A stretch of DNA of 64,000 bases. Source: Promicromonospora sp. AC04 (lineage in GTDB: Bacteria > Actinomycetota > Actinomycetes > Actinomycetales > Cellulomonadaceae). The DNA is taken from the NCBI RefSeq assembly GCF_003058225.1, contig NZ_QBUG01000011.1, positions 186,001 through 250,000 on the forward strand, in the 5' to 3' direction. The position numbers were made by a program, and so were the translations under genes. The notes below the pieces were generated by a model. The model was given only the letters and a program-made list of their open reading frames with translations. It was not told the origin of the DNA and did no database searches. Shown here in pieces: positions 3,236-18,401 of the stretch; the first letter of the stretch is position 1; the number at the start of each line of letters is the position of its first letter.

Positions 3236-6200
3236 CTACAGCGTCGGCACCAGCACCGTCATCAGCTCGCCCGAGCCCAGGTGCACCATCGCCTTGCCCG
3301 GGTTGACCTGGGTCGACACCGCCGATCGCGGCATGCTCACCCCGACCAGGTCGCCGTGGAACCGGTCCTGCGGGCTGAGCAGCGCACCCCGCCGGCTCTT
3401 CTTGACGTCCACCTGCCAGCCGGAGAACCCGCCGGCCACCTCGGAGGCCTCGCCGCCGATGATCAGCCCGCGCCGGTTGTCGGCGGCCGTGCGCAGGTAC
3501 GCGCGCAGCCAGGTCTTCGCCGGAATGTCGGCCACGAGCTCGGCGTCGTCGACGACCAGCACGACCGCGGCGTCGTCCGGGTCGAGGTGCGGCGCCAGCT
3601 CCTCCTCGGTGACCTCCGTGCCGGTGAAGACGGCGCGCACGCCGTCCCGGCCCTCGAAGTCGCGCAGGATGCTCGGGCGCGGCGCCATGACCACCACCTG
3701 GGTACCACCGCGCAGCAGCGACTCCGTCATCACGGCCAGCATCGTGGACCGCCCCGACTTCGACGGGCCGGCCACCAGGAAGGCCGGCGCGTCCCCGGCG
3801 AGGTCCATGCCGAACGCGGTCAGGTCGTCACCGCCGACGCCGAGCAGCGCCCACATCGGCTTGGCGGCCTCCGGGCCGACGTACTGGTAGGCCGCGTCCA
3901 CGGTGATCGTGGACGGCAGGTCGTCCACGCGGAACGGTCCGGTCCCGGGCACCACGTCCTCCCGCTCCCTGATCCGGGCGGCCATCTCGCGTGCGGCGCC
4001 GGTCTGGGCCCGACCCGCAGGGTCGTTCCCGAGGATCGCCACCTGCACCTCGAGCCCGCTGCCGGACCGGAAGGCCCGCCCGGGCTGGATCTCCTCGGGC
4101 AGCTTCTTGTGGTCGATGCCGACCATCCCGTAGTCGAACCGGTCGGTGAGGCGCAGCACGACGGCGTCGTCCGTCAGCACGCTCATCCGGCTCGACAGCA
4201 GGCTGCGGTCGCCGGACAGCACCAGGTGGATGCCGGCGCTCGCGCCGTCGCGCAGCAGCTCCTGGACGATCTCGACGAGCTTGCCGCTGTCGACCTCGCC
4301 GTAGGTGCTCATGAAGCTCTCCCAGCGGTCGATCAGCACGAGCACGCGCGGGAGGCGGGTCCCCGGGTCACCGAGCTCGCGCTGTTCCGTGACGCTGGCG
4401 AAGTTCCCGGCCGCGAGGACCTGCTGGCGCCGGCCGAGCTCGGTCTGCAGGCGCGTGAGGAGCCGCTTGGCCCGCTCGGCCTGCCCACGCTGCACGACGG
4501 CGCCCGTGTGCGGCAGCTCGTTCAGCACCGTCAGCGCGCCGTTGCCGCAGTCGATCGCGTACAGGTGCAGGTCGGCCACGGGCATGGCGTCGGCGGCCGC
4601 GAACGCCGTGGTGCGCAGCGTCGTCGAACGGCCGCTGCCCGGCGCGCCGACCACGTACCGGTGCCCGAAGTCGTCCAGGTCGATGACGGCGGGACCCTGG
4701 CGCTGGTCCGACGGCGAGTCCTCCATGGCCCACGCGAACTGGGACCCCGCACTCGGCTGGGCCAGCTCGTCGAGCGGGAGCAGGTCCTGCAGCGCGGGTA
4801 GCCACGGCCGCCGCGGGACCGGCCAGCCACCCATCCGTGCGGTCTCGCGCAGGGTCTCGACCAGCGCGGCGAGGTCGGTCTCCACGTTCTCGTGGCGCTT
4901 GACCCGGGGCCGGCTGGGCGGCGGCGCACCGAGCTCGGCCAGCGGCACGCGCGCGACGAACGGCGACTCGACCTGCCCGACGTCGGACAGGGAAAGGCGC
5001 CGTCCGCCCACGCGGGCGGACTGGAACGGGACCACCGAGGACGCCCCGAGCCGGGCGTAGGCCCGGCCGGGCTGCGACTTGGCGATGTCCGCCGCGTCGT
5101 TCGCGTCGATGACGTCCTTGGACTCGCTCTTGTCCGTCATCCGCAGGGCGACGCGCAGGTTCGTGTTGGCGCGGATCTCCGGGGAGATGACGCCGGACGG
5201 GCGCTGCGTCGCGAGGATGAGGTGGATACCGAGCGAGCGGCCACGCTGGGCGATGTTGACCAGCCCGGTGACGAAGTCGGGCAGCTCGCGCGCCATCGAG
5301 GCGAACTCGTCGATGACGATCATCAGGCGCGGCAGCGTGGGGCCGATGTGCCCGCGGCCCTGCGCGTCGAGGTAGTCCTCCAGGTCCTTCGCGCCGGCCG
5401 CCGCCAGGATGTGCTCCCGGTAGGTCAGCTCGGCGCGGAGCGAGTCGAGCGCGCGCTCCACGAGGTGCGAGTCCAGGTCCGTGACCATGCCGACGGTGTG
5501 CGGCAGCTGCTCGCACTGGCTGAACGCCGCGCCGCCCTTGTAGTCGACGAGCACGAAGTTCATGGTCTCGGGCGTGTTCACCACCGCGAGCGACGCGACG
5601 ATGGTCTGCAGGAACTCCGACTTGCCGGACCCGGTGGTGCCACCCACGAGGGCGTGCGGCCCGTCGCGCACCATGTCGAGCGTGAACGGCCCGTCCAGCG
5701 AGACGCCGACCACTGCCGCGGTGCTGCCCTTGCCCCCGTTGGAGATCATGCGCCACCGGGCCACCATCTCGTCGGCGTCGACCTCCTCGATGCCGAGCAC
5801 CTCGACGAGGCGCGCCGAGTCCGGGATCAGTCCCTCGCCCTCGGTGGCCGTCACGTCGTGCACGGCGGCGACGGCGCGCGCCACCGGCTCGTACCAGTCG
5901 TCCAGCACCTCGTCCACCAGCACGGCCCGCAGGTCGTCGGTGTCCTGCCTGCGCAGCGTCATGCCGCCGTCGACACGGGCGAGCGCCACCACCGTGCACT
6001 CCTCGGGCAGCAGCTGCTCGTCGCCGTCCAGACAGACGACGCTCACGCCGACACCAGGGCCGTCGCGCAGGATGGACACGACGCCGGGCAGCGCGCGCAG
6101 GCGGCGGGCGCCGTCGAGCACCACCACCACCTGCGGGCCGGCCATGATCTTGTTGCTGTTCCCCTCCATCGCGGCGCGGCGCTGGGTGATCACCGAGTTC

Positions 6201-7702
6201 AGCTCGGCGACGCGGGCGGAGAGGGTGTCAGTGGTCGTCCCGATCAGGGCTACGGCCTCCTGCCCGAACGACGGGCGCACGTGCGGCAGCCAGGCCGCCC
6301 ACGCCCAGTCCTGCACGTGCTCGGAGCTGGTCAGCACGTAGACCTGGACGTCGCGCGGGCTCTGCAGCACGCCGAGCTGGCCCACCATCCACCGGGCCCG
6401 ACGGCGCGGCCAGTCCCCCGGGCCGGCCAGGCCGACCACGCCTGCCTCCTTCAGCGGCACCGTGACCGGCACGGACCGCACGGTCGCGCGGGTCTTGCGG
6501 CGGTGCTCGGGCTCGGCGCTGTCCTCGACCTCGACGCGGCTGGTCGCGTCCGCGAGCCCCAGCCGCACCGTGAGGTGGTCGCCGTCGGTGCTGCGGCGCT
6601 CCCAGAGGCGGCGCGTCGGCGTGGTCGCGATGAGCCGCAGCTCGGCGGCGCCCGGGCTGGAGACCCGGCGCCGGTGCTGCTCGCGCCGCACCGCGTCCAG
6701 CACCTCCTCCTCCAGCGCGGCCCGCTCCTCGGCGTGCTGCTTGAGCCGCTCCTTGTGCGTGACCACGCCGTTGCGCTTCTGCATCCACCAGTTGCCCCAG
6801 CCCATCAGGGGCGAGGCCAGGGCGAACATCAGGTAGTACGGCTGCTGGAACACCATCGCCATCACGATGCCCAGCACCGCGGGCATGGCCATGCCGAGCC
6901 AGGGCAGCGGGTTCCGGCTGGGCGCCTGCGGCTCGGCGGGCAGGCGGAAGTGCGTGGCGGGCATCGGCGGCAGCAGGCGCGGCGGCCGGTTGTAGTCCAG
7001 GTGCCCGGGCTCGGCGGCCGGCCGCAGGTCGGCGTCGGGCCGCGTGGCCGACTGGACCGTCAGGACGCTCGGGCCGATGCGCAGCTGCGTGCCCGCCGCC
7101 CACGGGGCCTCGTCCTCGCCCAGCGGCTCCTCGAGCCGGTCCAGCTGGACCGGCTGACCGGCGGACCGGGGGTCCGGCACACGCCGCACCCGCACCGCGC
7201 CGTCGAGCGCTACGACGACGCCGATGGCGGCCAGCCCGCCCTCGCGCGGCTCGTCCACCCGGACGCGGCCGTCGGGGCCCACCTGCAGGATGGACTCCCC
7301 GACGCCGAGCCGGACCACGGCGCCGGTGCCCGTGCCGCCCGTGACGCACAGGTCGACGGGACCGCCCGAGGCGCCGGACCCCATACCGGGGTCGGCGAAC
7401 GTGACGACGGCGCCGTCCCGGATCCCCGATTCTGCGGCGAGCGCCTCGACGCCCGTGGCGTTCCCGTCGCGGACCGCGCGGTCCTGCACTCCGCGGTCCT
7501 GCACTCCGCGGTCCTGCACTCCGCGGTTCTGGACCGAGCGATCCTGGACCGCACGGCCGTCGACATACATCGTGCTGCCCTTGGGCGCGCCCACCTCGGC
7601 CGCCAGCCGTTCGGACAGGTCGGCAGTCTTCGTGCGCTCGTCCAGGTCAAGGGACAGGAGCGTCTCCCGCGCCCCGTGGCGCGCGGTGATCAGAGCGTGC
7701 AT
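3236..7702 (-). CDS. eccC: EccC/EssC-type FtsK/SpoIIIE ATPase of a type VII secretion-like system
   Basis: A 1488-residue membrane ATPase that would drive export of WXG100-type substrates. Residues 1-105 look ubiquitin-like (TADLSERLAAEVGAP, then a YVDGR strand) but are interrupted by five-residue repeats at 52-80. An FHA-like region follows (about 115-220), then two membrane helices near 268-300. ATPase 1 has Walker A GGTTGSGKS at 687-695 and Walker B LMIVIDEF at 793-800. ATPase 2 (GAPGSGRS, 1019-1026) and ATPase 3 (AGPSKSGRS, 1311-1319) carry Arg where Walker A Lys is expected. The single-chain layout with N-terminal FHA-like domains resembles EssC. It starts one base after the upstream stop, with a GGGAGG ribosome site. 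Confidence 0.93.
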   Translation of the reverse strand: MHALITARHGARETLLSLDLDERTKTADLSERLAAEVGAPKGSTMYVDGRAVQDRSVQNRGVQDRGVQDRGVQDRAVRDGNATGVEALAAESGIRDGAVVTFADPGMGSGASGGPVDLCVTGGTGTGAVVRLGVGESILQVGPDGRVRVDEPREGGLAAIGVVVALDGAVRVRRVPDPRSAGQPVQLDRLEEPLGEDEAPWAAGTQLRIGPSVLTVQSATRPDADLRPAAEPGHLDYNRPPRLLPPMPATHFRLPAEPQAPSRNPLPWLGMAMPAVLGIVMAMVFQQPYYLMFALASPLMGWGNWWMQKRNGVVTHKERLKQHAEERAALEEEVLDAVRREQHRRRVSSPGAAELRLIATTPTRRLWERRSTDGDHLTVRLGLADATSRVEVEDSAEPEHRRKTRATVRSVPVTVPLKEAGVVGLAGPGDWPRRRARWMVGQLGVLQSPRDVQVYVLTSSEHVQDWAWAAWLPHVRPSFGQEAVALIGTTTDTLSARVAELNSVITQRRAAMEGNSNKIMAGPQVVVVLDGARRLRALPGVVSILRDGPGVGVSVVCLDGDEQLLPEECTVVALARVDGGMTLRRQDTDDLRAVLVDEVLDDWYEPVARAVAAVHDVTATEGEGLIPDSARLVEVLGIEEVDADEMVARWRMISNGGKGSTAAVVGVSLDGPFTLDMVRDGPHALVGGTTGSGKSEFLQTIVASLAVVNTPETMNFVLVDYKGGAAFSQCEQLPHTVGMVTDLDSHLVERALDSLRAELTYREHILAAAGAKDLEDYLDAQGRGHIGPTLPRLMIVIDEFASMARELPDFVTGLVNIAQRGRSLGIHLILATQRPSGVISPEIRANTNLRVALRMTDKSESKDVIDANDAADIAKSQPGRAYARLGASSVVPFQSARVGGRRLSLSDVGQVESPFVARVPLAELGAPPPSRPRVKRHENVETDLAALVETLRETARMGGWPVPRRPWLPALQDLLPLDELAQPSAGSQFAWAMEDSPSDQRQGPAVIDLDDFGHRYVVGAPGSGRSTTLRTTAFAAADAMPVADLHLYAIDCGNGALTVLNELPHTGAVVQRGQAERAKRLLTRLQTELGRRQQVLAAGNFASVTEQRELGDPGTRLPRVLVLIDRWESFMSTYGEVDSGKLVEIVQELLRDGASAGIHLVLSGDRSLLSSRMSVLTDDAVVLRLTDRFDYGMVGIDHKKLPEEIQPGRAFRSGSGLEVQVAILGNDPAGRAQTGAAREMAARIREREDVVPGTGPFRVDDLPSTITVDAAYQYVGPEAAKPMWALLGVGGDDLTAFGMDLAGDAPAFLVAGPSKSGRSTMLAVMTESLLRGGTQVVVMAPRPSILRDFEGRDGVRAVFTGTEVTEEELAPHLDPDDAAVVLVVDDAELVADIPAKTWLRAYLRTAADNRRGLIIGGEASEVAGGFSGWQVDVKKSRRGALLSPQDRFHGDLVGVSMPRSAVSTQVNPGKAMVHLGSGELMTVLVPTL
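7466..7549 (-). repeat. 15-bp tandem repeat in the EccC-type gene
   Basis: Units encoding VQDRS, VQNRG, VQDRG, VQDRG, VQDRA and a degenerate last copy lie in the N-terminal ubiquitin-like region (residues 52-79). Three central units are almost identical at the DNA level, which indicates recent expansion. Confidence 0.8.
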
Positions 7703-7703
7703 G

Positions 7704-9539
7704 TCATTCGCCTCCCCGCCGCACGGCGGTCTGTTCGTCGAAGCGCACGTCGGGCAGGAACCCGCTGCGCAGCCAGCCGTCGTCGCCCGCGGTGAACCGC
7801 CACTTCGCCGACCCGGACTGGCCGAGGACGATCACCACCCAGGTGAACTCCGGGCTCGCGAACCGGGCCGCGAGCATGTCCTGCTGGGCGTTGGTCGGCG
7901 CCTGCGACAGCACCAGCACCCCGCCGTCGCCGACCTCCAGCTCGGGAACCACCTGCTCGATCCCAGCCAGGTGCTCCACCTGCTCGGGCTGGGGCAGGCC
8001 GTTGCCGACCATCACGACGCGCGGGTCGTTCGACCACGGGTTGCCGGTCAGCTCACCGAGCCACCGGCGCAGCACCTCGTGCCGGACCCGGGTGGGCCCG
8101 TCCAGGCTGATCACGCCCCTGGCCACGGAGAAGTCGACGAGCACCCGGCCCGTCTCGCCCATGCCCAGGTTGACCAGCCGGGAGAACTGCGCCGTCGAGC
8201 CCTCCGACGCCGCGCCCGACTGCAGCTTCGCCAGCGGCGCCGACCAGCTCTGCCCGTCCTCGCTCACCAGCCACGGCTCCGGGGCGGGCGAAGCCGGGTT
8301 CGTCAGCCGCAGCCGCAGCGAGCTGCCCTCGATGAACACGCCGGTCGTCGCCGGGATCTCCAGCCCGTCCCGCTCGCACGAAGCGATCAGCACCCGCAGC
8401 GCCCGGTCCACCGTCCACGCCGCCGACGTGTCCGTCCGCAGCAGGCTGTCGTCGAACGGCTCGGTCCGCTTCCGGCGCCGCACCAGCCAGATCCCCAGGA
8501 AGACCAGCCCGGCGAGCACCAGTGCCCCGCCGGCCCCGTACAGGATCGGGGCGATCGGGCCGACCGCCGCGGTCTCCTCCGCGCCCTGCACCTCGCCCGC
8601 CTCCGGCGAGGACGAGGGGGACGCCTGGAGCGACGAGGACGCCGACGGCGAGGCCGACGACGGGTCGTACCCGGGGAGCTTCCCGAACTTCAGCCCCCGC
8701 CCCGTCGCGTCAGCAGGCATCCTCATCACCCAGCCCGGCTTCAGCGTCCTGGGGTCGGTCAGGTACTCGCCGTCGGGCTGCCGGTGCCCCTCGGTCAGCT
8801 CCGAGATCTCCGGCCACCGCTCCCGGTCACCCAGGAACCGCTCGGCGATGTCGTTCAGCTTCTCGACATTCCCGTCCGGCGTCGCCTTCACCACGTAGTA
8901 CAGGACCGAACCCGGCGGCCCGCTGCGGCTCGGCACGGGATCAGGTTCCTTCGACGGTGTCGGCGAAGGAGCTGGCTGCTCCTGCTCCAGGTTCGGCGTC
9001 GGCTTCGGCTTCGGTGACGCCTTCGGCGACGGCTGGACCGGCTCCGGCTCGGGCACGCCGAAGACGCGCATCTCCCAGATCGAGTTGCCCGCCGCCGTGT
9101 CGTTCCGTTGCGTGGAGTACATCCGCACGTAGCGGCCGGCGCCGTCGACCGGGATCACGTCCGAGCCGCCGTCGCTCGCGTCCGTGGACCACAGCACGCG
9201 CCAGTTCTCGGCGTCGTCCGACACCTCGATCGAGTAGACCCGCGCGTAGAAGTTCTCCCAGTCGATCTCGACTCGTTTGACGGTCGCGGTCTGCTGGAGG
9301 TCGACCCAGATCCACTGCGGGTCGGCGTAGGCGCTGGACCAGCGGGTCAGCCCGTCACCGTCCACCGCGAAACGCGCGGCCAGCTCCGGGCGCTCGAGCC
9401 CCGAGGCCACCGCCGGCTTGTCCTGCGAGAGCAGCACCACCTGCTCGTCCTGTGCCTGGGCCGGGGTGAACCCGGCGACCAGCATCAGCAGCGCCGTCGC
9501 CAGTGCTACCAGTGTGGCGCGTGTCGAATGGTCACTCAC
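7704..9539 (-). CDS. Membrane protein with discoidin-like, LysM-like and shared cytosolic domains (T7SS locus)
   Basis: 611 residues: signal peptide (about 1-29, ending AQA), an F5/8-type C (discoidin-like) carbohydrate-binding domain (about 30-162), a Pro/Ser/Lys linker, a LysM-like domain (about 212-275), a Ser-rich linker, one membrane helix (about 328-352) and a 250-residue cytosolic domain starting EPFDDSLLRTD. The cytosolic part is the kind found in actinobacterial LysM-BTAD proteins, but no BTAD domain follows. It overlaps its upstream paralog by 8 bases and ends 1 base before the ATPase gene, so the three are cotranslated. It may anchor the secretion ATPase to the wall; that role is inferred. 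GTG start. Confidence 0.8.
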   Translation of the reverse strand: MSDHSTRATLVALATALLMLVAGFTPAQAQDEQVVLLSQDKPAVASGLERPELAARFAVDGDGLTRWSSAYADPQWIWVDLQQTATVKRVEIDWENFYARVYSIEVSDDAENWRVLWSTDASDGGSDVIPVDGAGRYVRMYSTQRNDTAAGNSIWEMRVFGVPEPEPVQPSPKASPKPKPTPNLEQEQPAPSPTPSKEPDPVPSRSGPPGSVLYYVVKATPDGNVEKLNDIAERFLGDRERWPEISELTEGHRQPDGEYLTDPRTLKPGWVMRMPADATGRGLKFGKLPGYDPSSASPSASSSLQASPSSSPEAGEVQGAEETAAVGPIAPILYGAGGALVLAGLVFLGIWLVRRRKRTEPFDDSLLRTDTSAAWTVDRALRVLIASCERDGLEIPATTGVFIEGSSLRLRLTNPASPAPEPWLVSEDGQSWSAPLAKLQSGAASEGSTAQFSRLVNLGMGETGRVLVDFSVARGVISLDGPTRVRHEVLRRWLGELTGNPWSNDPRVVMVGNGLPQPEQVEHLAGIEQVVPELEVGDGGVLVLSQAPTNAQQDMLAARFASPEFTWVVIVLGQSGSAKWRFTAGDDGWLRSGFLPDVRFDEQTAVRRGGE

Positions 9540-11193
9540 CGGCCCGTCGCACCGCCATCTGCTCGGTGTAGCGGACGTCGGGCAGGAACCCGCTCCGCAG
9601 CCAGCCGTCGTCGCCGGCGGTGATCCGCCACTTCGCCGACGCCGACTCGCCCAGCACGATGACCACCCAGCCGAAGCTCGGGGAGGCGAACTTCGCGGCG
9701 AGCATCTCCTGCTGCGCGGCCGACGGCGCCTGCGACAGCACCAGCACGCCGCCCTCCGCCGCCTCCAGCTCGGGGATCACCTGCTCGATCGCCGACAGGT
9801 GCTCGGCGAGCTCGGGCTGGGGCAGGCCGTTGCCGACCATCACCACCCGCGGGTCGTTCGACCAGGGGTTGCCGGTCAGCTCGCCCAGCCACCGGCGCAG
9901 CACCTCGTGCCGCGCTCTGGTGGGGCCGTCCAGGCTGATCAGGCCGCGCGCGGTGGCGAAGTCGACGAGCACCCGGCCCGTCTCGGCCACGCCGATGGTC
10001 ACCAGGCGCGCGAACCGTGCCGTCGACTCCTCCGACGCCGCGGCCGACTGCAGCTTCGCGAGCGGGGCCGACCAGCTCTGCCCGTCCTCGTTCGCCACCC
10101 ACGGCGCCGGCGCCGGGGAGGCCGGGCTCGCCAGCCGGAGCCGCATCGACGCGCCCTCGATGAACACCCCGGTAACCCCTGGCAGGTCCTGGCCGTCGTG
10201 CTCGCACGCGGCGACCAGCACCCGCAGGGCCCGGTCCACCATCCAGGAGGCCGAGCTGTCGGTGCGCAGCAGGCTGTCGTCGAACGGCTCCTCGCGCCCG
10301 GCACGCAGCCTGCGCACCAGGAGCACCCCGCCGAAGGCGGCGGCGCCCAGCAGCACCACGGCACCGATCGCGATCAGCACCGGGACCAGCCAGGAGGGGC
10401 TCCCCCCGGCGTCGTCCGCCGCGACCGCCTCGTCCGTGGCGCTCGCCTCGGGGGACGAGCTCGGACCCGGGAGCGGACCGTGCTGCAGGCCCTCACCCTT
10501 CGCATCCTTCGGGAGCTTCAGCACCCAGCCCACCGTGACGGACTCCGGGTCGGTGAGCTTGCCGCCGTCGGGCTGGATGCGGCCCTTGTTCATCTTGAAG
10601 ATCTCCCGGTACCGCTCGCCGTCGCCCAGGAAACGCTCGGCGATCGCGTAGAGGAACTCGGGCTCGCCCTCCGGCGTCGTGGCGATCACGTAGTACGGCA
10701 CCGACGGTTTGGCGGAGGCCTTCGGCGACGCCCCGTCCGCCGGCGCGCTCTCCTCCGTGCCGCTCCCGGCGTCCGCGGGCGCCGTGGGCAGCACCCCGAA
10801 CTCGATGCCTTCGCCCTCCGCGTCGTCGGGCATCTGCATCACCCAGCCCGGCAGGACGGCGGCCGGGTCTGTCAGGACGTTGCCGTCGGGCTGGGTGCGA
10901 CCCTTGTTGAGCTCGAAGATCTCGGTGTACCGGTTGCCGTCGCCGAGGAATCGCTGCGCGATCTCGAACAGGAACTCCTGCTCGCCGTTCGGCTTGGTCT
11001 GCATCACGTAGTACTTGACCTTCTCGCCCTTGCCCTCGTCCGCGGCGATGGCGGTGCGAACGATGGCGGGGGCGGTGCCCCCGAGAACCGAGCCTGCGAC
11101 CGCCGGTGCGGCTGTCGCGAGAGGGACCGCGACGGCGGTCGTGAACAGGGCGGCCGCCGCGAGTGCGGCGGCGGCGCGGTGGGCGTGGTGCAC
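9532..11193 (-). CDS. Membrane protein with two LysM-like domains and the shared cytosolic domain (T7SS locus)
   Basis: 553 residues from GTG with a GGAG site. Signal peptide about 1-34. Two LysM-like repeats at about 60-122 and 167-229 both contain the block RFLGDG.RY.EIF.(L/M)NKGR.QPDG. A membrane helix spans about 268-293, and a cytosolic domain (296-553) is closely related to that of the downstream gene (shared stretches WLGELTGNPWSNDPRVVMVG and AGDDGWLRSGFLPDVR). The topology puts the LysM domains on peptidoglycan and the shared domain beside the ATPase. It follows the last cassette gene by 59 bases. Tandem duplication with later swap of the outer domain is the simplest origin of the pair. 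Confidence 0.82.
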   Translation of the reverse strand: MHHAHRAAAALAAAALFTTAVAVPLATAAPAVAGSVLGGTAPAIVRTAIAADEGKGEKVKYYVMQTKPNGEQEFLFEIAQRFLGDGNRYTEIFELNKGRTQPDGNVLTDPAAVLPGWVMQMPDDAEGEGIEFGVLPTAPADAGSGTEESAPADGASPKASAKPSVPYYVIATTPEGEPEFLYAIAERFLGDGERYREIFKMNKGRIQPDGGKLTDPESVTVGWVLKLPKDAKGEGLQHGPLPGPSSSPEASATDEAVAADDAGGSPSWLVPVLIAIGAVVLLGAAAFGGVLLVRRLRAGREEPFDDSLLRTDSSASWMVDRALRVLVAACEHDGQDLPGVTGVFIEGASMRLRLASPASPAPAPWVANEDGQSWSAPLAKLQSAAASEESTARFARLVTIGVAETGRVLVDFATARGLISLDGPTRARHEVLRRWLGELTGNPWSNDPRVVMVGNGLPQPELAEHLSAIEQVIPELEAAEGGVLVLSQAPSAAQQEMLAAKFASPSFGWVVIVLGESASAKWRITAGDDGWLRSGFLPDVRYTEQMAVRRAGE

Positions 11194-11252
11194 GGTTGCT
11201 CCGTCTTCAGATGTGTCGCGTCAGTCAGGGTTGTTCTTGCCCCGAACCCGGC

Positions 11253-11963
11253 TCACGCGGAGCCGGGGACGGTTCGTTCGGGCAGGTTCAGGGGGTTCGC
11301 GCCGGGGCCGGACCAGCGGAAGGTGGTCATGATCGCGTCGAAGAAGAGGACCAGTGCCTCGGCGAGCAGCTCGGTCTTCTCGCTGTTCCAGAGCGTGCTG
11401 AAGGAGAGGACGAGCCACTCCCCCGCCGCCTCGTCGCGCGAGACCACGTACAGGACCTGGCGGGTCGACACCTCGGGCCAGTCGGGACCGCGCCGCACGT
11501 TGTGCTTGGTCTGCACGACCCGCACCGCTGGACGGCCGTCGAGCTCGGCCGGGTCGCTCTGCTCGTACCCGCCGGACAGGATGCTCGTCACCACCCGCAG
11601 CGGGTCCTGACCCGCATCGCTGACGACCTCCACCTCGGCGAGGGTCGCCGGGACGAGCACGCCGTCCATCGGCTCGGTCGGCAGATAGACCGCGCCGGTA
11701 CCTGCCTCCCGCGCCTCGCTGAGGGTCTGGTGCAGCTCGTCGCGCAGCATGTGGCGGTACGGCTCGGCCCTGTCGCGAGGCATCGAGTCCGGCAGCGCCC
11801 GCGCGACCACCTGCTCGATCGCCGCGTCCAGCTCCCGTGCCCGGCCCTCGCCCGTCGGGAACCGGGCCCAGCCCGGCGGCAGCAGCATGGTCCAGCCGTC
11901 GGTGGGCTTGCCGTTCGCCTGCTTGCCGTCCGCCACCGCGGACGAGGTCGGCACGTCGCTCAT
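11253..11963 (-). CDS. Conserved protein of unknown function, T7SS cassette A gene 5
   Basis: 236 residues, no signal peptide or membrane helix, so probably cytosolic. Starts with a 'GWTMLLPPGWARFPTGE' block, followed by a helical part and then beta-rich segments (STRQVLYVVSRD, EWLVLSFSTLWNS) and a final helix (ALVLFFDAIMTTFRW). It is clearly paralogous to 14938-15711 and more distantly similar to the neighbouring 11960-12613 product. The 'PPGW' start, a beta sheet and a helix before the end suggest a Mog1/PsbP-like fold; this is a by-eye guess. Its ATG overlaps the previous stop (ATGA). Chaperone, adaptor or immunity roles are all possible. Confidence 0.75.
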   Translation of the reverse strand: MSDVPTSSAVADGKQANGKPTDGWTMLLPPGWARFPTGEGRARELDAAIEQVVARALPDSMPRDRAEPYRHMLRDELHQTLSEAREAGTGAVYLPTEPMDGVLVPATLAEVEVVSDAGQDPLRVVTSILSGGYEQSDPAELDGRPAVRVVQTKHNVRRGPDWPEVSTRQVLYVVSRDEAAGEWLVLSFSTLWNSEKTELLAEALVLFFDAIMTTFRWSGPGANPLNLPERTVPGSA

Positions 11964-12613
11964 GAGTCGCTCCTGGTGATCGTGATGGCCGCCAGCAGCT
12001 CGTCGAGAGCTTCCATCATGAGCGGGACCGCGAAGAGGTCCTGGGTGCGCCAGAGGAGCACCGTGTCGACCACCGCGTCTTGGTACTCGGTCCGCCGCCC
12101 GAGGCCGACGCTCAGCCAGGCGGCACCGTCGTTGGCGATGTCGAGCCGGCTGACCCGCACCCCGTCGCCGTCGGGCAGCTCCAGATAGTCGACCGTCGGC
12201 GGGTTGAGCGGGGTTCCGCCTCCCTTGGCACCCAGTGCCTCGAGCAGCGCGTCGTCCGGCTCTCCCGGATCGCTGCTGCCGACGGCCACGAGCACGGGCA
12301 CGGGACCGCGGTCCGGCAGGCCGAAGCCCGCCACCACCCGTTGGCCGTCGCCCGCAGCCCCGTCCGCCTGGGCCCGGAGGTTGGCTATCGCGGCCGTCGC
12401 GGCCTCCAGAACCGCTGCCCGGTCGTCGTCCGACAGGTCGAAGCCCTCAGGAGCCTGTTCCGCGAACGAGGCCCGGAGGGCCTCGGTGACCTCTTGCTCC
12501 CACACCCTGATCGCATCGGGGGTCTCCGTGCCTGCTGCGGGTACCACCAGCCACCCCTCGGGCGGATCGATGGTCCAGTCCAGCTCGCCGACACCGGCGG
12601 TGCGCGCGCTCAC
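11960..12613 (-). CDS. Conserved protein of unknown function, T7SS cassette A gene 4
   Basis: 217 residues from GTG 12613, chosen because it overlaps the preceding TGA (GTGA). No export signal. Layout: 'DWTIDPPEGWLVVP', helices to about residue 95, then strands (RVVAGFGLP, PVPVLVAVG, DGVRVSRLDI, AWLSVGLGRRTEY) and a C-terminal helix (ALDELLAAITITRSDS). It is paralogous to 15708-16352 and appears to share its fold with the next gene. Tight coupling to the substrate gene before it suggests a dedicated partner of that protein. No family name recognised. Confidence 0.75.
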   Translation of the reverse strand: MSARTAGVGELDWTIDPPEGWLVVPAAGTETPDAIRVWEQEVTEALRASFAEQAPEGFDLSDDDRAAVLEAATAAIANLRAQADGAAGDGQRVVAGFGLPDRGPVPVLVAVGSSDPGEPDDALLEALGAKGGGTPLNPPTVDYLELPDGDGVRVSRLDIANDGAAWLSVGLGRRTEYQDAVVDTVLLWRTQDLFAVPLMMEALDELLAAITITRSDS

Positions 12614-14025
12614 GGGTAGAGCGCCGGCGTGTAGTTGTGCTCCTCGTCCCACTCCGCCCAGGCCCAGTCGCCGCGTGAGTCGGAGTCCTCGAAGATGTCC
12701 GACGGCGCCATGATCGCGGGAATAGCACCTGCCGCGAAGCCCCAGAAGAAGTTAAGGGGCCCCATCGTCCAGACGAACGGCGTGATGGAGGCGAACCCCG
12801 GGAGACCCATCCGCCCGAAGATGCTCAGGTTCTTGAGAATCGACGGATCCGGGAGGCCGACCATGTCGTTGAACGTCCACGCCCCCCTCGGGTTCTTGAT
12901 GATCGCCCAGTCCCCCGGGCTGATCTTGAACTTTCCCCAGATCTTCGAGAAGAACGCGCCCCAGCCGGAAGGCCCGACCTTCGTCGTGACGTTGCCGATG
13001 CTGCCGGCTCCGCCGAGGAGGATGGGCGGCGGCTTGAAGGTCAGCAGCTTGCCGAAATTGAGGCTGGCGAACAGCTTGGAGAGGTTGGGCAGTCCCTTGA
13101 GCGCCGCGATGAACGTGGGAATGCGCGCGGCGAAGTTCTTCGCCAGATCCATGAACGTCTTGCCGGCCTTGGCGAGGTTCATCGCGACCTTGCCCAGGCC
13201 GAGGGTCAGCACACCGAGTATGCCGAAGATGACGTTGACCCAGCTGGACTCCCCCGCGATGGCGAGGACCGTGCTGCCGAGCAGGCCGACCAGGGCGACG
13301 CCGAGCGCGAGGGTGGCGAGGAACTGTAGCCCTGGTACCAGCATCGCCAGGATCGCGAGCGCCATCCCGATCCAGCCGAGGATCTCGACGATCCACTTGA
13401 GGGCCTTGTGGAGGAAGGCTTCCCAGCCGCTGTGCCCGAGGCCGTCCTCGCCCCAGTTCTCCTTGATCTTGGTCGCTGCCCGGTCGGCCGCCGCCTGCAG
13501 GGTCTCCAGTGCCGCCTCGCACTTGGCCTTGGCCGCGTCCAGATCGGCCTTCGCGCCCGCGATCGCGTTCGTCCGGTCCTGCGAGTCCCGCCTCTCGCTG
13601 TCGGTCAGGGGCGGGGCGTCGTCCGGCCGGTCCGCGTTCACCGGGTCGGGCATGCCCTCGGCGCCCCGCTGCTTGGCCGCGGCAGCCTCCGCGTCCTTCA
13701 GCGCCGTGCCGGTCTCCGAGCGCGCCGTCTCCAGGGCCGGCTGGTACTCCTTGAGCGCGGCGTGCACGTCCTCGTACCGGCCCGCGACGGCGGCCAGACG
13801 CTCGTGGCTCTCGCCCGCCTTCTCGCGTATCGCGTCGGCCGACTCGCCCTTGAGCAAGGACTCGTCGCCTTCGCCGACCTTCTTGAGGAGCGCCGCCTGC
13901 GTGGTCATCATCTCGGCGATCTCTTTGTAGTGCCGGATCACCGCGTCCAGGCCGGACGCCTCGGCCGGCACCGGGTCGTCGTCGTGATCCAGCAGATGCC
14001 ACTCACCCACGCGGGCGGCGCTCAT
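12610..14025 (-). CDS. Putative T7SS-secreted protein with central membrane region, cassette A gene 3
   Basis: 471 residues; ATG 14025 follows AGAAGGAGA. The N-terminal 70 residues (MSAARVGEW, then DDDPVPAEASGLDAVIRHYK, then LLKGESADAIREKA) look like the T7SS-signal domain of actinobacterial secreted proteins. Helices with coiled-coil character run to about 190, followed by hydrophobic helices at about 209-280. The C-terminal 170 residues differ strongly from those of the paralog at 16352-17755, while the first 290 are well conserved. This pattern is typical of a delivery module joined to a variable end. No toxin motif is visible, so it may be a structural or membrane-inserting substrate. Confidence 0.78.
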   Translation of the reverse strand: MSAARVGEWHLLDHDDDPVPAEASGLDAVIRHYKEIAEMMTTQAALLKKVGEGDESLLKGESADAIREKAGESHERLAAVAGRYEDVHAALKEYQPALETARSETGTALKDAEAAAAKQRGAEGMPDPVNADRPDDAPPLTDSERRDSQDRTNAIAGAKADLDAAKAKCEAALETLQAAADRAATKIKENWGEDGLGHSGWEAFLHKALKWIVEILGWIGMALAILAMLVPGLQFLATLALGVALVGLLGSTVLAIAGESSWVNVIFGILGVLTLGLGKVAMNLAKAGKTFMDLAKNFAARIPTFIAALKGLPNLSKLFASLNFGKLLTFKPPPILLGGAGSIGNVTTKVGPSGWGAFFSKIWGKFKISPGDWAIIKNPRGAWTFNDMVGLPDPSILKNLSIFGRMGLPGFASITPFVWTMGPLNFFWGFAAGAIPAIMAPSDIFEDSDSRGDWAWAEWDEEHNYTPALYP

Positions 14026-14105
14026 CCAGTCTCCTTCTACGTTCTCGGGTCTGCCCTCGGAGCCCGTCGGGTCTCGAGCAAGCTGTCCAGCTCGACCTCG
14101 GTGGC

Positions 14106-14387
14106 CTATTCGGGCTTGAGCGAGTTGTCCAGCTCGGTCTCGGTGTTGTTCCAGGTCTCCGCGGACTGCTCCATCTTTTCCTGGAGGTCCTCGAGGTTGC
14201 CCGTGAGCTTCTCCCGCTTGACCCACCAGCTGCTGATGAAGTCGTCCATCGCGCCATCCACCGTCTTGTGACCCCAGATGTCGCCGCCGTCCCACATGGC
14301 GTCCATGTTCTTGAGCTCGTCGATGACGAGCTTGAGCTGCTTGGCGCCCTCGTCGATGACCTCCGAGGTGACTATCAGGTCAGACAT
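14106..14387 (-). CDS. WXG100-family protein, cassette A gene 2
   Basis: 93 residues forming a helix-turn-helix hairpin with W32-D-G34 as the WXG turn. This turn is earlier than the usual position near 40. A paired Trp segment (ISSWWVKREKL) opens the second helix. Roughly half of its residues match the paralog at 17818-18099. It follows the other WXG100 gene by four bases, and the pair probably forms a heterodimer or escorts the T7SS-signal protein encoded next. Immediately after its TAG stop the DNA repeats the last codons in altered form. Confidence 0.88.
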   Translation of the reverse strand: MSDLIVTSEVIDEGAKQLKLVIDELKNMDAMWDGGDIWGHKTVDGAMDDFISSWWVKREKLTGNLEDLQEKMEQSAETWNNTETELDNSLKPE

Positions 14388-14391
14388 GGCG

Positions 14392-14688
14392 TCACTTGTT
14401 CAGTGCGTTGGCAAGCTCTTCGTCGGTCTTGCGGAGCGCGTCGGCGGCCTGCTTCAGGTACTCACCGATACCCGTCAGGCCCTCCATGATCTGCTTGCCA
14501 CCCTTGTCGAGCTCCTTGTACGACTCGTCGAACCGCTTGGACGACTTGTCCGTCACGTAGCCGTCCTGGACCAGGTTGTCGACCATGGTGCGCAGCTGGT
14601 CCAGCTTCGCCTGCATGTCGTCCGACTCCTGCTTCATACGCTGGGCAGCATCTTCCATCTGCCCGAAGGTCACACTGATGTTTGCCAT
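14392..14688 (-). CDS. WXG100-family protein (EsxA type), cassette A gene 1
   Basis: 98 residues from ATG 14688 with an AGAGGA site; longer upstream frames lack support. It is a streptomycete-type WXG100 protein beginning NISVTFGQMEDAA, in which the canonical WXG turn is replaced by QDG at 41-43 (LVQDGYVTDKSSKRF). Its protein sequence is identical to that of 18105-18401, with only silent differences. As first gene of the cassette it would be exported by the EccC-type ATPase or act as a cosubstrate. Confidence 0.92.
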   Translation of the reverse strand: MANISVTFGQMEDAAQRMKQESDDMQAKLDQLRTMVDNLVQDGYVTDKSSKRFDESYKELDKGGKQIMEGLTGIGEYLKQAADALRKTDEELANALNK

Positions 14689-14806
14689 GATCGCGGTCCT
14701 CTTCCAGTAGTCCGTCGGAACGTGACGACCGTACACGAATCGGACACATCGGGATGAATTCCTCAGCCGGAGAACCGCGCCTCCGCGCCCCCGCGGTCCG
14801 GCCTCG

Positions 14807-14826
14807 CGCGGCGCCAAGGCGCCGCG
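14807..14826. terminator. Hairpin between cassette B and cassette A
   Basis: CGCGGCGCC and GGCGCCGCG form a 9-bp stem around AA, in the 249-bp gap between the two cassettes. It has no U-tract. It could end transcription of cassette B or act as a partial terminator or processing site that sets cassette ratios. Confidence 0.35.
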
Positions 14827-14937
14827 ATTCCGCAGGTAGCGGGCGCGCCGTACGTGATATCCCGTATCTTTGGCCGACGCCGCCGGCCGCAGCTCGCGCC
14901 GTGGCCGACGGCGGCGCCGCCGCAGCCCGGAACTCAC

Positions 14938-15711
14938 TCAAAAGTTCAGGGGGTTCGCGCCGGGGCCGGCCCACCGGAAGGTGGTCATCACCGCGTCGAA
15001 GAAGAAGACCAGCGCCTCGGCGAGCTTCTCGCCCTCCGCGCTGTTCCAGACGGTGCTGAACGAGAGGATCAGCCACTCGCCGTCGGCCTGGTCGCGGGAC
15101 ACGACGTACACGACCTGGCGGGTCGACACCTCGGGGAGATCGCCGTCGGGGTGCGCGTCGAGGGTGGTCTCGACGACGCGTACGCCGGGCCGGCCGTCGA
15201 TCTCGACGAGCTCGCTCTCCTCGTAGCCGTCGGCCAGGACCTCCGAGACCACCTCGAGCGGGTTGCTGCCCGGATCGCTGACCAGCTCCAGCTCGGTGAG
15301 CGACCCGGGGATGATCACGCCGTTCATCGGCTCCGTGGGCAGGTACACCGCCCCGGCTCCGGCGGCGCGCGCGTCGGCGAGCGTCGAGCGCAGGCCGTCG
15401 GCGAGCATGCGCCGGTGCGGTTCGGCCGAGTCGCGCGGCAGGTCGTCGGGCAGGGCGCGTGCGACGACCTCCTCGATGGCCTCGTCCAGGTCGCGAAGGT
15501 GCTCCTCACCGGTCGGGAAGCGGACCCAGCCGGGTGGGAGCAGGAGAGCCCAGGCGTCGGTCGGCCGGCCGCCCACGGCCGGGTCGGCAGTGGTCTGATC
15601 GGTCGCGGTCGGATCGGTCGCGGTCGGATCGGTCGCGGTCGGATCGGTCGCGGTCGGATCGGTCGCGGTCTGATCGGTCGCGGTCGGATCGGTCGCGGTC
15701 GGATCGGTCAC
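14938..15711 (-). CDS. Conserved protein of unknown function, T7SS cassette B gene 5
   Basis: 257 residues from GTG 15711, overlapping the previous stop as GTGA. The N-terminus is eight near-perfect copies of DPTAT (residues 3-42), giving a disordered Asp/Thr tail that the cassette A paralog lacks. After it comes the same domain as in 11253-11963 (ALLLPPGWVRFPTGE, VYLPTEPMNGVIIP, STRQVVYVVSRDQ, MTTFRWAGPGANPLNF). No signal peptide. Function unknown; the conserved pairing with gene 4 and the T7SS substrate argues for a shared role with them. Confidence 0.75.
   Translation of the reverse strand: MTDPTATDPTATDQTATDPTATDPTATDPTATDPTATDQTTADPAVGGRPTDAWALLLPPGWVRFPTGEEHLRDLDEAIEEVVARALPDDLPRDSAEPHRRMLADGLRSTLADARAAGAGAVYLPTEPMNGVIIPGSLTELELVSDPGSNPLEVVSEVLADGYEESELVEIDGRPGVRVVETTLDAHPDGDLPEVSTRQVVYVVSRDQADGEWLILSFSTVWNSAEGEKLAEALVFFFDAVMTTFRWAGPGANPLNF
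15586..15705 (-). repeat. 15-bp minisatellite (DPTAT repeats)
   Basis: Eight 15-bp units (GATCGGTCGCGGTCG and variants read on the plus strand) directly follow the start codon of cassette B gene 5. The units are nearly identical, which suggests recent slippage or unequal exchange; copy number may vary between strains. Confidence 0.9.
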
Positions 15712-16352
15712 GGTGCGCTCCTGGTGATGCTAACGGCCGGCAACAGCTCGTCGAGCAGCTCGGTCATGGCCGGGCCCTGCAGCAGATCCTGGGACCGCCA
15801 CTGCAGCACGGTGTCGACGACGGCGTCCGGGTGCTCGGTGCGCCGGCCGAGGCACACGCTCACCCACGCGCCGCCGGTCTCCGGGTCCAGGTCCAGGCGG
15901 GTCACGCGCATCCCGTCCCCGTCCGGCAGGTCGACGTGCTCGATCTTGGGCGGCGCGACGGAGTGGCCGCCGGTGGCGCCGAGCGCGGTCATGAGGTGGT
16001 CACCGGGGTCGTCGGGCGGCTCGATGCCGACCGTGACGAGCACGGGCACGGGCGCCGAGTCGGGCACTCGGAAGGTGGCGGCGACGACGGCGCCGGCGTC
16101 GATCACGCCGTCGGCGAAGGCGCGCAGGTTGGCCACGGAGGCCACGGCGACGCGCTCACGCAGCGCGTTCAGCGCCTCGCCGGTCTCGTCGTCGGCCTGT
16201 TCCTCGGGGGCGTCGTCGAACGAAGCGCGGATCACCTCGGTGATCTCCCGCTCCCACGTCGCGAGCAGCTCGGACGGCAGTGCATCGGTCGTGGGGACGA
16301 GCAGCCAGCCCTCGGGCTCGTCGACCAGCCAGGTCCATCCGTTCGCCGCCAT
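15708..16352 (-). CDS. Conserved protein of unknown function, T7SS cassette B gene 4
   Basis: 214 residues from ATG 16352, which shares one base with the TGA of the substrate gene (TGATG). Paralog of 11960-12613: shared blocks are PEGWLLVP, the WE.E.TE..RASF helix, DLPDGDGMRVTRLDL and the terminal helix LLDELLPAVSITRS. Cytosolic, no known motif. It repeats the order seen in cassette A, so the substrate/gene 4/gene 5 unit is conserved as a block. Confidence 0.75.
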   Translation of the reverse strand: MAANGWTWLVDEPEGWLLVPTTDALPSELLATWEREITEVIRASFDDAPEEQADDETGEALNALRERVAVASVANLRAFADGVIDAGAVVAATFRVPDSAPVPVLVTVGIEPPDDPGDHLMTALGATGGHSVAPPKIEHVDLPDGDGMRVTRLDLDPETGGAWVSVCLGRRTEHPDAVVDTVLQWRSQDLLQGPAMTELLDELLPAVSITRSAP

Positions 16353-17755
16353 CAGACCGGGTTCTCCCCGGTGAGGCCGGAGTAGTTCGCGTCGTGCCAG
16401 CCGTCGTTGTTCTTCCGCGGGTCGTTCGGGTTCAGGATCGACGGGTTCATCATGCTGAACGGGCGGCCGAACCAGCCGATCGTGTAGGCGATCGGCCCGA
16501 CGTACATCCACGGCTTGATCCGGTAGATGTTCCCGAGCAGCCCGAGATTGCTCGCGATCTTGTTCACGTCCCTGATGTCGCTGATACCGATCAGGCGGTC
16601 CCAGCGGTAGTCGCCCTTGGGCCAGGCCTTCGTGAGGCGGCTCCAGTCCTCCTTGAGGACCCACTTCGGATTCTTGAAGATGTGCCACCAACCGGGACTG
16701 ACTCGTGTCTTGAGCAGGAAGTCCCCCATGCTCCGGAAGTTGCCGACGGCCTTGAACAACGCGTCCCTGACCCCATCACGCGCGGCCGGGGTCAGGTTGC
16801 GAAGCGCGAACGCGAGAGTGCCGATCTTGTCCTTCGCCAGGTTCAGCTGCACCGGCCCGGCCTTCGTCAGGCCGAGCCCCTGGATGCCCTTGAGCTTGCT
16901 CGCGATCTTCGCCGCGATGCCGATCCCCACGAGGCTCAGCACACCGAGGATGACGCCGAGCCAGCTGCCCTCGCCCTGGGCGGCCAGGATGAAGCTCGCG
17001 ACCACGGAGACCACGGCGACCCCGATACCGATGAGCGCGATGACGTTCAGCCCGGGGATCAGGATCGCAAGCACGGCGAGCGCCAGCCCGATGTACGTCA
17101 GGATCTCGACCAGCGCCTTGAGGAACTTGTTGAGCCGGTGCACGAAGGCGTCCCAGCCCGAGGTGTGCAGCCCGTCGACCTTCCAGTTCTCCCGGATCTT
17201 GGCGGCGGCGGTCTCGGCGGCGAGCCTGAGCGCCTCGAGGGCGCCGGCCACCTTCTGCTTGGCCGCCGCGATGCCGGAGCCTGCGGTGTTGATCGCCGCC
17301 TCGCGGTCCGACGACGCGGTCTTCTCCTTGTCGGTCAGCGGCGGGGCGTCGTCCGGCCTGGTCGCGTTGACCGGGTCCGGCATGCCCTCCGCGCTCTGGA
17401 GCTCGCGGTTGGCCTTCTCCGCATCGGTCAGGGCGTTCCACGTGTCGGTCCGGGCAGTGGTCAGCGACGGCTCGTAGGTGTCGAGCGCCGAGTGCACGTC
17501 TGCGTACCGGCCGGCCGCCTTGTCGAGGGCCCCTGCGCTCTCCCGGGCGCGCTTGCGCATGGCGTCCGCGGACTGTCCCTTGAGGAGACGGACGTCGCCG
17601 TCGCCGATCCTCTTGAGCAGGGCCGCCTGCTCGGTCATCGCCTCGGAGATCTTCTTGTAGTGGGCGATGACCTCGTCCAGCTCCGAGGGATCAGCCGGGA
17701 CCGGGTCCGAGTCGTGGTCGACCAGTGACCATTCCCCCATGCGGGCGGCGCTCAT
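16352..17755 (-). CDS. Putative T7SS-secreted protein with central membrane region, cassette B gene 3
   Basis: 467 residues; AGAGGAGA precedes ATG 17755. The first 290 residues follow the cassette A protein closely, including the signal-like N-terminus, the block EGMPDPVNA.RPDDAPPLTD, the ENW...GWDAF segment and the hydrophobic helices (about 212-285). Beyond that the sequence diverges, with a basic segment rich in Lys and Trp (FKNPKWVLKEDWSRLTKAW) and a hydrophobic end. Encoded between the WXG100 pair and the two unknown proteins. Probably exported or inserted by the ATPase; activity unknown. Confidence 0.78.
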   Translation of the reverse strand: MSAARMGEWSLVDHDSDPVPADPSELDEVIAHYKKISEAMTEQAALLKRIGDGDVRLLKGQSADAMRKRARESAGALDKAAGRYADVHSALDTYEPSLTTARTDTWNALTDAEKANRELQSAEGMPDPVNATRPDDAPPLTDKEKTASSDREAAINTAGSGIAAAKQKVAGALEALRLAAETAAAKIRENWKVDGLHTSGWDAFVHRLNKFLKALVEILTYIGLALAVLAILIPGLNVIALIGIGVAVVSVVASFILAAQGEGSWLGVILGVLSLVGIGIAAKIASKLKGIQGLGLTKAGPVQLNLAKDKIGTLAFALRNLTPAARDGVRDALFKAVGNFRSMGDFLLKTRVSPGWWHIFKNPKWVLKEDWSRLTKAWPKGDYRWDRLIGISDIRDVNKIASNLGLLGNIYRIKPWMYVGPIAYTIGWFGRPFSMMNPSILNPNDPRKNNDGWHDANYSGLTGENPV

Positions 17756-17817
17756 CCGTCTCCTCTTCTGCTGCTGTCACATAGCGGTGGCTGCTGCCCG
17801 GGTGGCGGCGGGGCGTC

Positions 17818-18099
17818 CTACTTCTGGTCGAAGGTCGAGGCCAGCTGGTCCTCGGTGTCGGTCCAGGTCTTCGCCGCCTCGTCCATCTTCTTGGTGAGGT
17901 TGTCGAGCTGCTGCTGGAGCTTCTCCCGCTTGACCCACCAGTCGTCGATGAAGTCGTCCATGGCGCTCTTCAGGACCTCGTGGCCCCAGATCGCGCCGCC
18001 GTCCCAGAGCTTCGACATGTTCTTGAACTCGTCGTTGATCGCCTTGAGATCCCTGGCGGAGTCCTCGAGAACCTCCTTGGTGACTACCAGATCAGCCAT
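17818..18099 (-). CDS. WXG100-family protein, cassette B gene 2
   Basis: 93 residues with W32-D-G34 in the turn (KLWDGGAIWGH), the same paired Trp segment (IDDWWVKREKL) and a helical C-terminus. It has diverged well from its cassette A counterpart, in contrast to the identical first genes. It starts five bases after the stop of gene 1. Likely partner of gene 1 or of the T7SS-signal protein that follows. Confidence 0.88.
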   Translation of the reverse strand: MADLVVTKEVLEDSARDLKAINDEFKNMSKLWDGGAIWGHEVLKSAMDDFIDDWWVKREKLQQQLDNLTKKMDEAAKTWTDTEDQLASTFDQK

Positions 18100-18104
18100 C
18101 GCGA

Positions 18105-18401
18105 TTACTTGTTCAGCGCGTTGGCGAGTTCTTCGTCGGTCTTGCGGAGCGCGTCGGCGGCCTGCTTCAGGTACTCACCGATACCCGTGAGACCCTCCAT
18201 GATCTGCTTGCCACCCTTGTCGAGCTCCTTGTACGACTCGTCGAACCGCTTGGACGACTTGTCCGTCACGTAACCGTCCTGGACCAGGTTGTCCACCATC
18301 GTGCGCAGCTGGTCCAGCTTCGCCTGCATGTCGTCCGACTCCTGCTTCATACGCTGGGCAGCATCTTCCATCTGCCCGAAGGTCACACTGATGTTTGCCA
18401 T
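18105..18401 (-). CDS. WXG100-family protein (EsxA type), cassette B gene 1
   Basis: 98 residues, identical in sequence to the cassette A product; the DNA differs only at about eight silent positions and in the stop codon (TAA here, TGA there). Carries QDG instead of WXG in the turn. It is the first gene of the whole minus-strand T7SS-like cluster. The octamer GTCCGATT occurs upstream of this gene (18461-18468) and of its twin (14738-14745), 50-60 bases before each ATG, and may be a shared promoter element. Confidence 0.92.
   Translation of the reverse strand: MANISVTFGQMEDAAQRMKQESDDMQAKLDQLRTMVDNLVQDGYVTDKSSKRFDESYKELDKGGKQIMEGLTGIGEYLKQAADALRKTDEELANALNK

Follow-up and report, generated by a model that had tools for sequence, protein, structure and literature searches.

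A compact type VII secretion-like locus of Promicromonospora with a conserved CytD membrane protein and duplicated effector-like cassettes

Known type VII secretion systems (T7SS) differ in their membrane core, and a locus of Promicromonospora sp. AC04 raises the question of which membrane parts accompany an EssC-like ATPase when several familiar ones go undetected. The locus occupies positions 3236-18401 of a stretch of 64,000 nucleotides (nt), here called the window (contig NZ_QBUG01000011.1, positions 186,001 to 250,000), in a genome of 6.85 Mb and 26 contigs. Its 13 genes, all on the minus strand, belong to seven families: an EssC-like ATPase, WXGa, WXGb, TMsub, PEGWa, PEGWb, and a wall-binding membrane protein with the cytosolic domain CytD. 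The names PEGWa, PEGWb, TMsub and CytD were coined in this analysis. An FtsK/SpoIIIE-type multi-domain ATPase and WXG100 proteins share one operon, as expected of type VII secretion genes in the broad sense. The initial annotation reported neither the actinobacterial nor the Firmicutes set of core genes and offered two explanations, that two LysM membrane proteins replace them or that a core encoded elsewhere is borrowed. It is quite probable that, as a gene set, the locus represents a distinct T7SS variant without EccB, EccD and EssB. No description of this gene set was found in the literature searched, which included passages of PMC3482391; subscription papers and preprints, which were mostly outside the scope of that search, may hold one.

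Gene content of the locus

In order of transcription, two cassettes of WXGa, WXGb, TMsub, PEGWa and PEGWb (18401-14938 and 14688-11253) are followed by two membrane proteins and the ATPase. Lengths below are in amino acids (aa), and pLDDT is the predicted local distance difference test score of a structural model.

18105..18401, minus: WXGa copy 1, 98 aa, WXG100 protein (Pfam WXG100, 64.9 bits)
17818..18099, minus: WXGb copy 1, 93 aa, with a WDG motif and no PF06013 match
16352..17755, minus: TMsub1, 467 aa, membrane-hairpin protein and probable substrate; T7SS_signal 24.6 bits (cut-off 27), two hydrophobic segments within 238-284
15708..16352, minus: PEGWa1, 214 aa, paralogue of PEGWb (hhalign 89.5% between the two families)
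14938..15711, minus: PEGWb1, 257 aa, N-terminus with a 15-nt tandem repeat
14392..14688, minus: WXGa copy 2, identical as a protein to copy 1
14106..14387, minus: WXGb copy 2, WXG100-type by size, place and WDG motif
12610..14025, minus: TMsub2, 471 aa, membrane-hairpin protein and probable substrate; T7SS_signal 19.1 bits (cut-off 27), three hydrophobic segments within 212-278
11960..12613, minus: PEGWa2, 217 aa
11253..11963, minus: PEGWb2, 236 aa, modelled with a DcrB/Mog1/PsbP fold (AlphaFold2 pLDDT 85.3)
9532..11193, minus: P0003, 553 aa, LysM-transmembrane-CytD membrane protein 1; PRK11198 42 bits, below cut-off; CytD model pLDDT 88.2
7704..9539, minus: P0002, 611 aa, F5/8C-LysM-transmembrane-CytD membrane protein 2; F5_F8_type_C 67.4 bits; its CytD is 79% identical to that of P0003
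3236..7702, minus: EssC-like ATPase, 1488 aa; TIGR03928 562.5 bits (cut-off 778.4), FtsK_SpoIIIE 184 bits
3111..3195, no strand: hairpin 3' of the operon, with a 23-bp perfect inner stem

The initial annotation was correct as to the 13 genes, the 1488-residue ATPase and the perfect hairpin that closes the operon. The intergenic gaps run from -8 to +80 nt, except for the 249 nt that separate the two cassettes. The perfect stem sits within a wider imperfect one, whose end is 40 nt from the ATPase stop and whose RNA fold has a z-score of -9.5, with none of 200 shuffles folding as well; the hairpin would serve as a transcription terminator. Other parts of that annotation stood in a modified form. 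Of the four proteins called WXG100, the two identical 98-aa copies match Pfam and the 93-aa pair does not. The two T7SS-signal membrane substrates are present as membrane-hairpin proteins, with T7SS_signal matches that remain below the Pfam cut-off. The four proteins of about 215-260 aa that it called unknown belong to a single pair of paralogues, each present twice, for which a DcrB/Mog1 fold is predicted.

Core genes and distribution

Profile searches of the window genome found neither EccB nor EssB; here as in the other genomes, the genes searched did not include EccE, EssA or EsaA. EccD is absent from the locus, and the only EccD-like gene of the genome lies on another contig, C3 (77.8 bits against a cut-off of 94.95, and 77.4 bits in the search across genomes), where it adjoins its own full EccC, which scores above both EccC cut-offs. 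The absence of a canonical set claimed by the initial annotation is upheld to this extent. A total of 24 genomes were searched, 22 with the locus or its Streptomyces sister form and two (G004 and G007) with neither. EccD was found in nine, one of them through a weak match with a stop, and EccB in five, all large actinomycetes. EssB/YukC was found in none of the 24, although the Bacillus subtilis control matches. MycP was above its cut-off in four of the 24, none of them Promicromonospora, and subtilases match below the cut-off everywhere. Among the 22, EccB is undetected in 17 and EccD in 13, and EccB, EccD and EssB are all undetected in 13, one of which (G009) is only 83% complete. Each of the three models gives matches elsewhere, and on these counts a borrowed canonical core is judged unlikely.

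An orthologue of the ATPase with at least 72% identity is present in 13 of 59 relatives, namely the window genome, 10 of 12 congeners, G322 and G311. Strong PEGWa matches (E < 1e-40) and strong PEGWb matches are found in the same 13. Weak PEGWa matches occur in a 14th genome (G317) and at a second place in G012, and weaker PEGWb matches in ten further genomes; those in G334 (contig C6) and G312 (contig C1) are less than 3 kb from another EssC-like gene. In a wider scan, the best 80 of 522 confirmed relatives were kept as fetched loci, some of them cut by contig ends, and families were assigned by iterated profile search (inclusion E < 1e-6). All seven families are present in 38 of these 80 and CytD in 48. 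The 38 full loci are from Promicromonosporaceae, Microbacteriaceae, Streptomycetaceae, Micromonosporaceae, Intrasporangiaceae, Catenulisporaceae and Frankiaceae, with one unplaced bin.

A quick tree of 50 ATPases groups 22 rows in one clade (Shimodaira-Hasegawa-like approximate likelihood ratio test 99), and CytD is present in 20 of its 21 fetched rows, the exception (L148) being on an 8.8-kb contig. Long-branch rows, including the ATPases on contigs C2, C3 and C13 of the window genome, are not safely placed in this tree. The neighbouring clade is mainly Streptomyces and has effector-like cassettes in many loci, with CytD mostly absent beside the ATPase; a CytD match was found elsewhere in the genome in all 14 such Streptomycetaceae searched, and in most cases the frame is about 1000 aa long and part of the model is covered. 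In a clade of Knoellia, Aeromicrobium and one Nocardioidaceae bin, long LysM proteins are encoded near the ATPase in three of four loci. In some Streptomyces loci (within L139-L173) the ATPase is surrounded by several TMsub/PEGW cassettes that point in both directions, which suggests an expanding effector set. In G002, an additional PEGWb gene (L078:5128-5694) between two cassettes is perhaps the remnant of a lost one.

Candidate membrane partner, motor and cargo

The membrane protein conserved beside the ATPase is the LysM/CytD protein, as the proposal of wall-anchored LysM partners in the initial annotation implied, but LysM is not its constant part. In other lineages LysM is swapped or missing and CytD is constant, so LysM was rejected as the defining element. 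Both proteins are present in the window. P0003 is matched by NCBIfam PRK11198 (E 1.1e-10, 42 bits, cut-off 134) and by no Pfam LysM model at E <= 0.01. General domain scans matched neither model to P0002, whose LysM-like stretch was recognised through alignment with P0003. An F5/8C (discoidin) domain in P0002 (67.4 bits, cut-off 28.2) had gone unmentioned.

CytD is tentatively modelled with a RecA/FtsK-type fold, and none of 32 sequences has a Walker A motif. The idea that CytD is a recent duplicate of an ATPase domain found no support, hhalign giving less than 1% against all six ATPase pieces tried. The control pairs D1-D2, D1-D3, D2-D3 and DUF-D2 reached 88-99%; since DUF-D1 (19%) and DUF-D3 (<1%) fail too, CytD and the ATPase may still be distant kin.

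Other combinations are found among relatives. The long LysM proteins L053:2153-5518 and L054:8122-12558 also contain a CytD-like part and end in a BTAD-like region (one above and one below the Pfam cut-off); their neighbours look Tad-pilus-like by eye, and similar proteins are near EssC-like ATPases in Knoellia and Aeromicrobium. In Micromonosporaceae (L117, L122, L123, L125, L126, L128 and L129) LysM is joined in one protein to a mycosin-like domain whose catalytic sites are lost, and the gene upstream of this fusion has ricin and weak SLT matches in the two scanned.

The ATPase, probably the secretion motor judging from its family, is below the cut-offs of all three curated T7SS models (TIGR03928 for EssC, as listed; TIGR03924, 408.9 of 509.15 bits, and TIGR03925, 315.3 of 346.55 bits, for EccC), as are four others (L112, L172, L164 and the C2-type). 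It has three Walker-A-like motifs, GTTGSGKS at 688, GAPGSGRS at 1019 and GPSKSGRS at 1312, the latter two with Arg in place of Lys. In an N-terminal scan of 22 ATPases, 21 of the group and the C2-type, YukD matched eight (best E 1.3e-4) and the FHA-like Yop-YscD eight; neither matched the window ATPase. Against PDB, the N-terminal profile picked up FHA structures, with a best E of 2.3e-4, and less strongly ubiquitin structures (2.7e-3). A ubiquitin-like, YukD-like part fused to the ATPase is therefore likely, given the YukD matches in relatives and these weak structure matches.

A genome-wide Pfam search found, at this locus, only the two WXGa proteins (64.2 bits each); the 93-aa WXGb was not found by PF06013 in that search and is called WXG100-type because of its size, place and WDG motif. 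The WXGa genes are alike at 288 of 297 nt in spite of strong differences between their neighbours, a pattern that gene conversion or recent selection might explain. The WXGb copies share 47 of 93 residues, or 48 of 94 positions when the stop is included. TMsub was found by profile search in 61 of 81 loci and protein sets, and its hydrophobic hairpin in all 24 cassettes sampled. The PEGWb model has the fold of SciW and EagT6, chaperones of the type VI secretion system (T6SS), and also that of the immunity proteins Tsi3 and TplEi. Sequence searches with PEGWb gave nothing useful, with one of 41 members matching in Pfam (E 0.033) and one match in PDB (E 0.34). The tandem repeat of PEGWb1 (window 15592-15714, 8.2 copies) encodes TDPTA repeats.

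Covariation was measured across the 24 cassettes, which represent 17 Promicromonosporaceae loci, after controlling for ATPase distance. These cassettes are not independent, seven of the loci contributing two per genome; the division of TMsub at residues 200 and 300 is arbitrary. Within TMsub, the C-part varies most (mean distance 0.596). WXGb covaries with the TMsub N-terminus (0.65) and to a lesser degree with the transmembrane part (0.45) and C-part (0.48). PEGWa follows the transmembrane part (0.68) and C-part (0.66) and hardly the N-terminus (0.18, a value reached by 18 of 499 permutations). Both of these patterns follow gene adjacency, and an exchange of blocks is therefore an alternative explanation for them. 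The pattern of PEGWb does not follow adjacency: it covaries with the N-terminus (0.47) and hardly with the transmembrane part (0.10) or C-part (0.13).

A proposed mechanism and its setting among known systems

The locus can be read, with moderate confidence, as a self-contained T7SS variant in which DcrB-fold chaperones hold the membrane-hairpin effectors to be exported. The motor would be the EssC-like ATPase, with an N-terminal region that is probably YukD-like and FHA-like. A dedicated membrane partner would expose an exchangeable wall- or carbohydrate-binding module outside and keep the constant, degenerate RecA/FtsK-like CytD inside, where CytD may dock on the membrane-proximal layer of the motor, tying the machine to the wall and replacing EccB/EccD or EssB. 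The cargo would comprise WXGa and WXGb as a pair together with TMsub, the helical domain at the N-terminus of which may pair with WXGb. Insertion of the TMsub hairpin into the producer's own membrane would have to be prevented, and the DcrB/Mog1-type paralogues PEGWa and PEGWb could hold it in the cytoplasm as SciW and EagT6 do with T6SS effectors, PEGWa being effector-specific and PEGWb general. This assignment, with the PEGW proteins as chaperones and CytD as wall-tethered motor partner, is considered fairly plausible. It builds on the observed gene content and its conservation, the core genes that went undetected, the covariation and the predicted folds; export as such, the action of the chaperones, the docking of CytD and a role of TMsub as effector are inferred. 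The broader proposal is tentative: a distinct and widespread actinobacterial subtype with a wall-tethered RecA/FtsK-like pseudo-ATPase partner, whose outer part binds glycan and is exchangeable, and with a DcrB-fold chaperone pair, convergent with T6SS EagR, that holds membrane-inserting effectors.

It is unlikely, although worth weighing, that PEGWa and perhaps PEGWb are immunity proteins and TMsub a toxin whose variable C-half is exchanged with its cognate PEGWa; PEGWb might be a chaperone even then. Three loci (L109, L112 and L113) have, within the fetched stretch, two TMsubs with C-parts only 30-34% identical and a single PEGW pair, which disfavours a strict toxin-immunity pair. Orphan immunity genes might also be expected in relatives that have no ATPase orthologue, yet none of these 46 (of 59) gives a strong PEGWa match, and PEGWa follows the transmembrane part of TMsub as well as the C-part. 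TMsub could instead be a membrane channel subunit, with the PEGW proteins as assembly factors, and its frequency and invariable hairpin would suit such a role. This is improbable, however, given the likeness of its N-terminus to a T7SS signal domain (below cut-off), the variability of its C-part, and its duplication together with its WXG partners. An accessory set using another T7SS core, such as the EssC of C2 associated with FHA, kinase and PP2C genes or the EccC-EccD of C3, is equally improbable. The window genome does have further EssC/EccC-like genes at C2, C3 and the C13 edge, and EssC-like genes of about 35% identity recur in the genus. However, the locus has its own full ATPase, EccB was not found in the window genome, and EccB, EccD and EssB are all undetected in 13 of the 22 genomes, C2-type systems not being tabulated there.

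A conserved set working without EccB, EccD or EssB would offer a small system in which to test how much membrane core a T7SS needs. A DcrB-fold chaperone pair would link the handling of membrane-inserting effectors in T6SS and T7SS. It would also provide a setting for the uncharacterised crystal structure 3lyd, a homologue of which is near another EssC-like ATPase of the window genome.

That ATPase is at C2 (C2:568000-600000, L013 and L014), is 1491 aa long and has WXG100-like, FHA, kinase and PP2C-like neighbours by sequence reading. The C2 locus has an ATPase of a class similar to that of the locus described here and has the DcrB/LpqN protein homologous to PDB 3lyd nearby, but no CytD or TMsub cassette was recognised at C2. 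The C3 locus (C3:482000-519000, L016 and L017), with its full EccC, its EccD-like gene and CpaE/ParA-like ATPases in a genome without detected EccB, is a second unusual T7SS. Beside it, a 975-aa protein (L017:1211-4138) with a C-terminal XopAD/skwp match (100 bits, cut-off 2000) is a possible polymorphic effector. At the C13 edge (L015:1411-3906), a further EssC-like ATPase near the contig end (TIGR03928, 257 bits) is probably cut by the gene call or the contig.

The Ess/Yuk systems of Firmicutes (T7SSb) are alike in their three-ATPase EssC-like motor, FHA-like N-terminus, WXG100 proteins and, probably, YukD-like domain. The locus differs from them in the lack of a detected EssB, the probable fusion of the YukD-like domain to the motor, an ATPase below the EssC cut-off, and the addition of CytD and PEGW. 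With the ESX systems (T7SSa) it shares an FtsK/SpoIIIE motor, a WXG100 pair and, in Micromonosporaceae relatives, a mycosin-like domain; it departs from them in that EccB and EccD are mostly undetected, the ATPase is below the EccC cut-offs, and the mycosin-like domain is without catalytic sites. The LysM-BTAD proteins near Tad-pilus-like genes likewise combine LysM with a CytD-like domain, but are about 1100-1500 aa long and end in the BTAD-like part. Finally, the PEGW proteins, as putative chaperones, resemble the EagR chaperones of T6SS in predicted fold and in their place beside a candidate membrane-hairpin cargo gene; they differ in being two paralogues in a T7SS-like setting.
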